Below, in pieces: positions 2,572 to 8,151 of a DNA stretch of 64,000 nucleotides. The stretch lies in IMG/VR virus record IMGVR_UViG_3300031788_000002, positions 1-64,000 of that record; one strand, written 5' to 3'. The notes beneath the pieces were generated by a model. That model had not been told where the DNA came from, ran no database searches, and saw only the letters and a program-made list of their open reading frames with translations. The translations under genes and the position numbers were made by a program. Source of the DNA: a virus. Position 1 is the stretch's first letter. Every line of letters begins with the position of its first letter.

Positions 2572-3520
2572 AGCAGGCTCAGCCTTTGCACGCCCTTGGG
2601 GGTATTCTCCGGACATGCCCTCGGCCTTCTTCGACGAGCTTTGCAAGATCGCCGCCGCCAAAAGCCAGTTCAGCGTCCCCCAAACCCGTTCCGGGCGTCG
2701 GTCCATGACCGTAGAGACGCTGCTTCGCAAAGAAAAAGACGGGTCGCTCTACAAAGAGAAGGCCAAGCTGGCCGACGCCATCTCGAGTGGATTGCAGCAT
2801 ATGGCCTACGGTCAAGGTCTTCTACATGGGGGATTGGCCGAGAAGGCGGGCAAGAACCCGAGAGACTTTGACCCCGTCGAATTGCATGAGGGCACAGAGG
2901 AAGAAGAGCAAGAGCACACCAAGGATGTGCCGACCGCGCGCCAAATCGCGATGGACCATTTGACTGAGCACCCACATTACTACAAGGCGCTCGACAAAAT
3001 GGAGAAGCACCTCGATGAAGAAGAAGGTGAGAAGAAAGCGTGGGCCAAGCTCGCCGGTGTTTGGCGGAATCCGGCTTTGTACACGTACGGGGGACGACCC
3101 CGCAGCGGTTTAGACAAACACGCCGACTCCTGGAAACCGCAGTGGCTTGAGGCATCGTTCTCGCCTGACAGCGGGTATGGCACCCAAAACGCCGTGGTGC
3201 GTGCGAAGACCAAGCCTGGGGACGGCCCCGCGGTAGATGAAGGGCTCACCGAAGGTCAAAAGCCACGGGTCGACGCCACCTATTCCCAGCCAACCAATAG
3301 TTTGGTAGCGCCCAAAGAGGCGGCGGCGTGGTCCAAAATTGCAAGGCCCGCGGTCATGGGGCAGCTCGTGAGGAGCCCGACGGACACATGCCCCGATGCG
3401 GCCAGCTTGGGTGCGCCCGGGCGTATGCGTCATGAACTCGAGCACAATCTTGTAATGGGCCCTCTATCGGATGCCCAGCCGCTTACCGGGACGTCAACCG
3501 ACGCGTACCAGAGGACATAA
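2555..3520 (+). CDS. Protein with DELxKIA and AWxKLA repeat tags
   Basis: The 321-residue protein overlaps the end of the previous gene by 17 nt. ATG at 2615 is an equally good start, since neither has a clear SD. The N-terminal region holds FFDELCKIA (nt 2627-2653), a motif repeated at the N-terminus of the next gene. AWAKLA (3038-3055) and AWSKIA (3326-3343) recur internally. The middle is Glu/His-rich (EGTEEEEQEHTKD) and charged. I recognise no domain. It is probably a virion or scaffold protein, because it is locked between structural genes and shares tags with its neighbour. Confidence 0.75.
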   Translation: MLFSDEAGSAFARPWGYSPDMPSAFFDELCKIAAAKSQFSVPQTRSGRRSMTVETLLRKEKDGSLYKEKAKLADAISSGLQHMAYGQGLLHGGLAEKAGKNPRDFDPVELHEGTEEEEQEHTKDVPTARQIAMDHLTEHPHYYKALDKMEKHLDEEEGEKKAWAKLAGVWRNPALYTYGGRPRSGLDKHADSWKPQWLEASFSPDSGYGTQNAVVRAKTKPGDGPAVDEGLTEGQKPRVDATYSQPTNSLVAPKEAAAWSKIARPAVMGQLVRSPTDTCPDAASLGAPGRMRHELEHNLVMGPLSDAQPLTGTSTDAYQRT

Positions 3521-3522
3521 AC

Positions 3523-5145
3523 ATGCTGACTACTGTTGAAGCCGGCGCATTCTGCGATGAGCTGGCAAAGATCGCGTTGGTTGAGCGCTTGGCACGCCTT
3601 GGGGCGACGGATATTCCGGGCACGCCTCGCTTATTGATGAAACACCGTGACCCCGAAGAGCTGGCCGCGCTTCAACACGGGATTACGAACACGTGGGATC
3701 GAGGGGCCGCGCCGCTTAAGGCCAAGGTCGATGCCGTCGCCGAGCATGTTCCCACCGAGCTCGGTAAGAAGGTGGTGCGCGGCCTTGGGCACACGGCCAT
3801 CGATAACCCAGACGCCGCGTTGATGAGCGCCGTTCCCCTCCCGTTTGCCAGCGCTGCCTACATGGCCGGCAAAAGAGGGCTCGAAGGGCTCATTGATCGC
3901 GTTGCCCCCGTGGCTAACCCCCAGCCACTGCTCAAAGCGGCTTTCTTGGCGTCGGGAGGTTACCTCCTTAATCAAGTGGGTAAACCTAAGGTGCGCCCTG
4001 AAAACCCTGAGCCAAAACCCAGTCTTATTGTAAAACAGGGTATGTTTCCTACGGACACCCCGCCCGGACCGATTGATCCTTCGGTGACCAAACACCTCAA
4101 GGACAGCGCCCGTATCGCTGCACCAGGTAAGAGCCTTCCGGGCGTACCCAATTCGGCGGGCAGTGGGCACTCTATCGCGGGGGCGAAGACCGCTGCGAGC
4201 TGGACCAAGCTCGCGGTGAGCCCGGAGTGGATCAATGCTCGCGTACAGGCTGCGGCGGCGAACGGGGTGGACCCTGCCCGGGGGTACAAGTTTTTGGATC
4301 GCACGTCGAAGAAGTTCGTGTTCGGCACGAACGAAGCGGCGGCCAACAAGCACTTCTCGGCCAATTTCGCCGGATTGAAGGCCGGGCTGGGGAAGGCGCC
4401 CGAAGCAATTGCGGAAGCGGGGCGGCGCAACGCGGCCACCGCCGTCAGCGGCATTCGAAACGCAGCGCCAGCCGCGGTGGATGCGCTGGGGGCAACAGTG
4501 CCCTCTCTGCGCTCCACCGCTATTTCAGATGCAGCGCCGGTGGCGTCAGCCGCCCGATCGATGAACCCCTACCTGTTGGGGGGTGCCGCCCTTGGGGGCG
4601 CGGCGTTGTTGGGCGGTGGTGCCTACTTAGCGCACCGGGCGCTCTCGCGGCCAGCCCAAGAGCCGCTGCCTCCCCAGGAGAAAGCGGCCTGGGCTAAGCT
4701 GGCCTTTAGCGACAGCGGCTTTGGGCCCACGGGAGGCGTCTTCCGACCCCAGTACGCGAGCTACCAAGGCACCGTGCCCATCCCGTCCCCGGTGGTCATG
4801 GACCCACGGCTGAAGCACGGGGGCAATGCACCGCGCGATCAGAAGAAAGTGGCCTTCGACCAGAGTGGGTTTGGCATGGCCACGTCGATTGGGCCGACGC
4901 ACGGGAACGGGGGCAACCACGAGAGCTACCAGGGGCGCCTTCCCTTGCCTCCGGTCGTGACCCTCGATCCTTTTCTACGGAAGAAGACCGCGGCCATTCC
5001 CTTGACGCCCAAGGGGCGTTTAGCGAGCAGCGCGAGGGAAGGTGCGCCGAAGACCACGGGCTTTACCGGGCCCTCGGTAGCGGAAGTGTCCAAGCCGGTA
5101 GGTTTCGGGCGCAACCTGCCCGGTGCGTCGAAGGGCAGCATTTGA
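3523..5145 (+). CDS. Modular tag-repeat protein, probable virion component
   Basis: This 540-residue protein starts 2 nt after the previous stop behind an AGAGGA SD. FCDELAKIA lies at residues 10-18. ASWTKLA, KAAWAKLA and LRKKTAA punctuate the sequence. Two C-terminal segments are repeats of each other: KLAFSDSGFG leading to SYQGTVPIPS, and KVAFDQSGFG leading to SYQGRLPLPP. An Ala/Gly-rich hydrophobic stretch near residues 350-367 (YLLGGAALGGAALLGGG) could insert in a membrane. The LRKKTAA tag recurs at the N-terminus of the sigma factor at 7339. No family recognised; likely a virion internal or head protein. Confidence 0.75.
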   Translation: MLTTVEAGAFCDELAKIALVERLARLGATDIPGTPRLLMKHRDPEELAALQHGITNTWDRGAAPLKAKVDAVAEHVPTELGKKVVRGLGHTAIDNPDAALMSAVPLPFASAAYMAGKRGLEGLIDRVAPVANPQPLLKAAFLASGGYLLNQVGKPKVRPENPEPKPSLIVKQGMFPTDTPPGPIDPSVTKHLKDSARIAAPGKSLPGVPNSAGSGHSIAGAKTAASWTKLAVSPEWINARVQAAAANGVDPARGYKFLDRTSKKFVFGTNEAAANKHFSANFAGLKAGLGKAPEAIAEAGRRNAATAVSGIRNAAPAAVDALGATVPSLRSTAISDAAPVASAARSMNPYLLGGAALGGAALLGGGAYLAHRALSRPAQEPLPPQEKAAWAKLAFSDSGFGPTGGVFRPQYASYQGTVPIPSPVVMDPRLKHGGNAPRDQKKVAFDQSGFGMATSIGPTHGNGGNHESYQGRLPLPPVVTLDPFLRKKTAAIPLTPKGRLASSAREGAPKTTGFTGPSVAEVSKPVGFGRNLPGASKGSI

Positions 5146-7338: not shown

Positions 7339-8151
7339 ATGCCGACGATCGATCCTCTCAACAGCTATCTTCGGAAGAAGACGGCCGCCCAACAAAAATG
7401 TGAAGAAGACGATCACGCCTTGGTTACCCAGTGGCAGCAGGCGCATCAAGGCGACGCTGTAAACCCCGCGCTGACGCATCAAGTACTTCAGCGCTTTCAG
7501 CCTACGATTCAAACGGCGCTGAAGAAGTACAAATCGCCGCTCACGGGACCGGGCATCAACGCCGCTGCAAAAACCTATGCGGTTGAAGCCCTCAGAACGT
7601 ACGACCCCTCCCGCGGCGCTTCTTTTAACACGCATTTGACCAATACGTTGCGGCGGCTGCATCGAGAGAACAATCAAGCGCAAGCCTCCTACGTTCCGGA
7701 AGACCATGTGACGTACTTCGGGCCCGCTCAGCGCGCGCACGATGAATTCGTCGATGAGTTTGGGCGGACACCGACGCCGGAAGAGCATGAGCAACGGCTG
7801 AATGAAATGCTACCGGAACGCCGCCGTTTGGCCCCCGGGGCCTTGGCACCCATCCTGGCGCTCAAGCGCAACACCGTGGTCTCCAGCAACTTCGCTTCGT
7901 CTCCCAACACGTTTGCGCAGGATCTAGAGCAGCAAAATGTGGCGCTTGGGCGCCATGACCTCGCTGAGCCGGATCGCAAAGTCTACGACTTGATCTACGG
8001 CAACAACGTGACGAGTACCGGGGACATCGCTAAGCGCTTAGGTATGAGCGACCCCGCGGTTTCTCGTGCAAAGACCCGCATCGAAAAGACCCTCTCCCAA
8101 CCGGTGGGCGCTTCCAAGCGCAAGAAGCCGGGCGCTCTTTCTTCCCCGTAA
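7339..8151 (+). CDS. Sigma-70 family RNA polymerase sigma factor
   Basis: The 270-residue protein directs RNA polymerase to promoters. Region 2 is visible in YDPSRGASFNTHLTNTLRRL, the usual -10-recognition helix context. A region-3-like segment follows (EFGRTPTPEEHEQRLNEM). Region 4 near residues 210-255 is a helix-turn-helix (STGDIAKRLGMSDPAVSRAK). ATG 7339 has a GGAG SD; the frame opens earlier at a GTG (7291) that lacks one. The N-terminus carries LRKKTAA, shared with the tag-repeat protein at 3523. It is a candidate for reading one of the two promoter classes in this window (inference). Confidence 0.88.
   Translation: MPTIDPLNSYLRKKTAAQQKCEEDDHALVTQWQQAHQGDAVNPALTHQVLQRFQPTIQTALKKYKSPLTGPGINAAAKTYAVEALRTYDPSRGASFNTHLTNTLRRLHRENNQAQASYVPEDHVTYFGPAQRAHDEFVDEFGRTPTPEEHEQRLNEMLPERRRLAPGALAPILALKRNTVVSSNFASSPNTFAQDLEQQNVALGRHDLAEPDRKVYDLIYGNNVTSTGDIAKRLGMSDPAVSRAKTRIEKTLSQPVGASKRKKPGALSSP

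Follow-up and report, generated by a model that had tools for sequence, protein, structure and literature searches.

A candidate K-x-A prohead-protease code and N-terminal cargo tag in a group of large, mostly uncultured phages

The internal proteins of phage T4 carry an N-terminal capsid-targeting sequence of ~10-20 residues, in which some residues direct targeting and others allow processing by gp21 (PMC9026906, PMC7411985). Published cleavage sites are [I/L]xE for T4 and AxE for SPN3US (PMC10052503, PMC9026906), and the SPN3US protease gp245 is self-processing with release of a C-terminal propeptide (PMC10052503). Herpesvirus assemblin belongs to the same protease superfamily (PMC7411985). 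The phage genome analysed here contains a family of short K-x-A peptides. It is quite likely that the prohead protease of the phage, a T4-gp21-like enzyme, recognises these as its sites, and that the N-terminal versions serve as removable cargo tags similar to capsid-targeting sequences.

The window comprises bases 1-64,000 of a 167,481-base virus record, and the remaining 103 kb were also analysed. Genes were called across the whole record with a simple coding-potential script, so that minor gene starts are approximate. The gene at 1-2571 of the window is open at the start of the record and the last gene, at 166784-167481 (G000:C1), is open at its end. The two pieces (856 + 232 aa) sum to the length of the intact homologue, for which open frames are mostly 1,026-1,151 aa, which makes it probable that the record represents a complete, closed genome opened within the 1-2571 gene.

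An earlier note on this DNA had drawn attention to six peptides of DELxKIA and AWxKLA type in two adjacent proteins. All six occur in frame within two adjacent open reading frames, and four of the positions given there stand, whereas SWTKLA lies at 4198-4215 rather than 4195 and the second AWAKLA at 4687-4704 rather than 4681 (errors of 3 and 6 bases). FFDELCKIA (2627-2653) begins at residue 5 of the first protein, which also contains AWAKLA (3038-3055) and AWSKIA (3326-3343), and FCDELAKIA (3550-3576) begins at residue 10 of the second. The features of the two genes are:

2615-3520, + strand: tagged virion-type protein of 301 aa with a DUF5661 stretch (ORF call; Pfam DUF5661, E 1.4e-8)
2615-2653, + strand: N-terminal tag MPSAFFDELCKIA, a proposed capsid-targeting peptide with a K-x-A end, the presumed cut falling after 2653
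3026-3055, + strand: double site GEKKA/WAKLA, proposed internal processing (K-x-A at 3032-3040 and 3047-3055)
3308-3343, + strand: double site PKEA/AAWSKIA, proposed internal processing (K-x-A at 3314-3322 and 3335-3343)
3523-5145, + strand: second tagged, multi-segment protein of 540 aa (ORF call)
3523-3576, + strand: N-terminal tag MLTTVEAGAFCDELAKIA of the 540-aa protein
4180-4215, + strand: double site AKTA/ASWTKLA (K-x-A at 4186-4194 and 4207-4215)
4675-4704, + strand: double site EKAA/WAKLA, ahead of the first SGFG module
4837-4854, + strand: QKKVA, between two SGFG modules
4975-4995, + strand: RKKTAA, past the second SGFG module

A scan of viral contigs by pattern returned no direct homologues of either protein, and homologues were instead obtained by synteny. 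An open reading frame homologous to 2615-3520 is present in at least 10 related genomes with a variable N-terminus. No direct homologue of the 540-aa protein was found in 11 related records, and its N-terminal domain (RLGATDIPGTPRLLMKHR) stands alone in related genomes. The tandem modules of the 540-aa protein (4687-4995), each of ~50 aa (FSDSGFG..., FDQSGFG...) and ending near DPxLxxK with K-x-A sites between, have no counterpart in 16 syntenic blocks of related genomes. Because the layout of the tags matches that of T4 capsid-targeting sequences, we read both window proteins, by analogy, as N-terminally targeted cargo or core proteins, with the AWxKLA double sites as probable points of further splitting.

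Judged from sequence, DELxKIA and AWxKLA represent a single code that can be written roughly as [E]-[FML]-E-K-[T/I/L/V]-A|[S/A], with K-x-A-[A/S] as their common core. Each AWxKLA is the downstream member of a pair of sites (EKKAWAKLA, PKEAAAWSKIA, AKTAASWTKLA, EKAAWAKLA), the other K-x-A lying 5-7 residues upstream. The most frequent form of the code in the genome, KTAS, is located outside the window and is the top-enriched 4-mer in an unbiased count over 173 predicted proteins (13 observed vs 0.7 expected). K-x-A-[AS] is enriched 4-fold in the virion genes of the record (48 vs 12.8 expected), whereas the rest of the record contains 20 vs 19.9 expected. The earlier note had proposed a genome-wide motif search as a check, with absence of the motifs from the other proteins as grounds for refutation; the motif family is instead abundant in virion genes and shows no enrichment elsewhere. 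Among 1,304 non-redundant proteins of related phages, from contigs gathered via protease and major capsid protein (>200 contigs encode relatives), KTAS occurs 217 times vs 8.2 expected and K.AS 993 times vs 146, while the control patterns TKAS (2 vs 7.8), R.AS (93 vs 134) and S.AK (117 vs 157) show no enrichment. It is exceedingly improbable that Ala/Lys-rich helical proteins simply yield K-x-A-A/S by chance: virion proteins of this phage are indeed Ala-rich, but the enrichment disappears when residues are shuffled within proteins, when the letters are permuted and when R replaces K, and the shuffle and permutation controls rule out chance and composition. Recent duplication of the DNA is likewise ruled out by the differing synonymous codons among motif copies, which indicates that the likeness is kept at the protein level.

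The sequence logo, in which Lys, Ala and the P1' Ser/Ala were set by the search pattern and the remaining positions were free, displays acidic residues at P7-P6, F/M/L at P5, Glu (acidic) at P4 and Lys at P3, followed by T/L/V/I/Q at P2 with Pro and Gly depleted, Ala at P1, Ser/Ala at P1' and Ala/Val at P2'. The motif is short, is strict at P1 and P3, and recurs only in head and core proteins. As a control, the identical blind k-mer enrichment was applied to the T4 core proteins, where I.E ranks first and L.E fourth, and to a set of cleaved SPN3US proteins, where A.ES ranks first; in the phage of this record K.A ranks first and K.AS second. That the known T4 and SPN3US sites are recovered in this way argues more strongly than any other evidence for K-x-A|[S/A] being a protease code, with the cut expected after the alanine. 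In phage G head genes K.AS is the top motif (12 vs 1.9), and the looser K-x-A[ASGQE] is ~2.6-fold enriched in the head genes of Arash (11 vs 4.2) and Vibrio D181 (13 vs 4.9).

The enzyme that would read this code is encoded within the head module, between the terminase (120002) and the major capsid protein (129344):

123607-125199 of the record: prohead protease of 530 aa, T4-gp21-like

This gene has no Pfam match and no PHROG match. The AlphaFold model is well folded at 33-266 and disordered at 1-32 and 267-325, with a helical C-terminal domain. Foldseek places T4 gp21 (5jbl) as its best PDB match (prob 0.93 and TM by target 0.52, although E is 0.14), Bacillus phage G gp19 as a second structural match (E 6e-12) and, in BFVD, viral prohead proteases that are themselves predicted (prob about 1). 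H117/H118 and S174 are invariant in 38 protease sequences, at a spacing near that of T4 H85/S140. The fold, the catalytic His and Ser and the head-module position are those of a caudovirus prohead protease (T4 gp21-like/herpes assemblin superfamily), whose putative substrates would be head proteins. In several relatives (L017:10001-13669, L016:10001-12811 and others) intein-like insertions interrupt the protease after residue 176, in the catalytic serine region, and the L017 protease has a second such insertion near residue 280; these insertions contain LAGLIDADG and intein-splicing domains.

The protease itself has K-x-A sites at residue 30 (the domain edge), at 291 and 305 (the disordered linker) and at 501 (K501xA503). 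K30xA32[S/A/G] is conserved in 38/38 sequences for K and 37/38 for A, and K305xA307 in 37/38 and 36/38, respectively, with flanks that are only ~50% identical. By analogy with gp245, site 305 would be the place where a self-processing C-terminal propeptide is released. These linker positions bear on a different explanation, in which K-x-A helices serve as uncleaved docking motifs: each would hold its virion protein to a common partner, be it scaffold, portal or the inner surface of the capsid, and no proteolysis would follow. In favour of this, the hydrophobic P9/P5/P2/P1 positions of the N-terminal form fit a single helix face, the P5/P2/P1 spacing would equally suit a helix that docks and is not cut, and the K23xA25 of the major capsid protein is modelled inside a helix. 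Docking is nevertheless unlikely given the placement of K-x-A in disordered linkers of the protease, the strong P1' preference for S/A, the intolerance of P3 to Arg and of P2 to Gly/Pro, and the recovery of protease specificities in T4 and SPN3US by the same blind enrichment. The major capsid protein site (KEKLA) is invariant; since its P1' is mostly Q/E and it lies within that predicted helix, cutting of the major capsid protein at KEKLA is doubtful.

Returning to the reading of the peptides as protease sites, the N-terminal form occurs on many unrelated proteins of related genomes. Between the homologues of the window gene 88-2571 and those of the sigma factor gene at 7339-8151, 16 related genomes have a block of small proteins, many of which open M...AFxDELxKIAA, and most of these genomes have 1-4 of the tagged proteins next to one another. 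Across the whole pool of related proteins there are 48 with the tag, and removing it leaves 18 families (~15 without doubtful members, which include L150_13692), such that the family counts and syntenic clusters reveal one short N-terminal peptide common to non-homologous proteins. Over the first 40 residues of the pooled related proteins, the DELxK[IL]A-type tag was counted 105 times vs 3.5 in shuffles, some of these copies being on mutually homologous proteins. At its end the tag has the K-x-A core of the enriched code, itself the putative site of the protease. It is improbable, though less so than docking, that the internal KTAS/AWxKLA copies are cut while DELxKIA is an independent, uncut targeting or anchoring helix that resembles a site. 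Such a division would account for the extra F and DE positions of the tags and for the variants that end in KIG, KIS or KLG and not KxA, but the K-x-A core and the acidic upstream bias are common to both forms, and the family of the 2615-3520 protein, with its highly variable N-terminus, usually retains a K-x-A immediately ahead of the conserved domain, also where DEL is lacking (LVKEAV, LVKNAV, MHKEAAS). The earlier suggestion that the peptides are short linear motifs rather than domains is supported by the enrichment in virion genes, the encoded prohead protease and the N-terminal form on many unrelated proteins. Of the roles listed there (capsid-protease site, cargo tag or scaffold contact), the evidence favours a protease site combined with a targeting tag.

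A similar N-terminus is present further along the window:

7339-8151, + strand: phage sigma-factor-like protein (PHROG RNA polymerase sigma factor, E 2.8e-5)
7339-7386, + strand: N-terminal tag MPTIDPLNSYLRKKTA of the sigma factor, a similar K-x-A N-terminus

In most related genomes examined, homologues of this sigma factor have their own N-terminal K-x-A form, and in one relative a packaged-type helicase bears the full DEL tag. The sigma factor is a homologue of Arash gp10 and the helicase of Arash gp217 (38% identity), both of which were detected in Arash virions (PMC10585845). Both Arash proteins are without the N-terminal tag; packaging in this distant relative therefore does not require the tag, and the virion detection shows only that the tagged proteins belong to packaged families. 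Arash coverage values were rejected as evidence for cleavage, as 100% coverage from 2 peptides is implausible; the Arash table lists no termini.

Two further observations concern proteins of the record. The beta and beta-prime RNA polymerase parts, which in Arash are separate virion-detected genes (gp206 and gp216), are joined in a single protein of 2,515 aa (G000:C1:106086-113633; L004:5086-12633). This fused polymerase contains 1 K-x-A-[AS]. The portal-like protein (G000:C1:97686-101084; L003:15686-19084) is split by a ~450-aa insertion with a LAGLIDADG domain, which is probably an intein.

Combined, these components suggest a model for head maturation. The protease at 123607-125199 would recognise a consensus of about [E]-[F/M/L]-[E]-K-[T/L/V/I]-A|[S/A], and the internal AWxKLA/KTAS copies, which occur in the protease and also mark off segments within scaffold, core and cargo proteins, would be cut as the head matures. 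The N-terminal copies (AFxDELxKIA|A, and YLxxKxKxA in the sigma factor) may be longer, amphipathic versions with a role like that of the T4 capsid-targeting sequences: they would draw unrelated proteins into the prohead, where the same protease would then remove the tags. The freed cargo may then be ejected into the host.

The broader proposition, which we consider evenly balanced between true and false, is that across a large, mostly uncultured clade of ~165-195 kb phages a transferable tag (AFxDELxKIA/YLxxKxKxA) on unrelated proteins, including sigma factor and helicase, loads cargo that is freed by a K-x-A|S protease. If true, packaged cargo could be read from genome sequence alone, and both the virion cargo and its processing map would be predictable for hundreds of uncultured phages. 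It would also add an apparently undescribed prohead-protease specificity, offer, as a candidate, a compact tag by which proteins could be brought into large capsids, and explain how a phage sigma factor enters the particle beside the virion RNA polymerase. A literature search found no published K-x-A prohead-protease motif, although its coverage was incomplete and newness is not proven by it.

The closest described counterpart is T4, where short N-terminal peptides on unrelated internal proteins (IPI-III, Alt) end in the motif of the prohead protease, gp21 (PMC9026906), as is proposed for the tags here. The phage protease shares the gp21 fold, with 5jbl as its best PDB match, and is itself expected to be processed; targeting and processing residues lie within one short peptide in T4 and would do so here, in an amphipathic stretch followed by the proposed site. 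The two differ in the code, K-x-A|[S/A] here and [I/L]-x-E| in T4, and in the tag, AFxDELxKIA here and the first 10 residues of IPIII in T4; the likeness between the tags is taken as analogy only, the peptides being too short to be tested for homology. Further, the K-x-A N-terminus here extends to a sigma factor and the DEL tag, in one relative, to a helicase, both known from sequence. The SPN3US gp245 system (PMC10052503, PMC7411985) resembles the one proposed here in its multi-substrate processing, its many sites per propeptide and its P1' Ser preference, and SPN3US is also a phage with a virion-packaged RNA polymerase and a protease with a C-terminal propeptide. It differs in having Glu at P1, in place of the Ala found here, and its propeptides are mostly 111-254 residues. 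Bacillus phage G has the structural match gp19 and K.AS leads in its head genes, but it is a 498-kb phage whose major capsid protein, gp27, is without the motif and is nearly full length in the deposited chain 6wkk. The release and maturation sites of herpesvirus assemblin have an Ala|Ser scissile bond, whereas Lys at P3 is specific to the K-x-A phage group.
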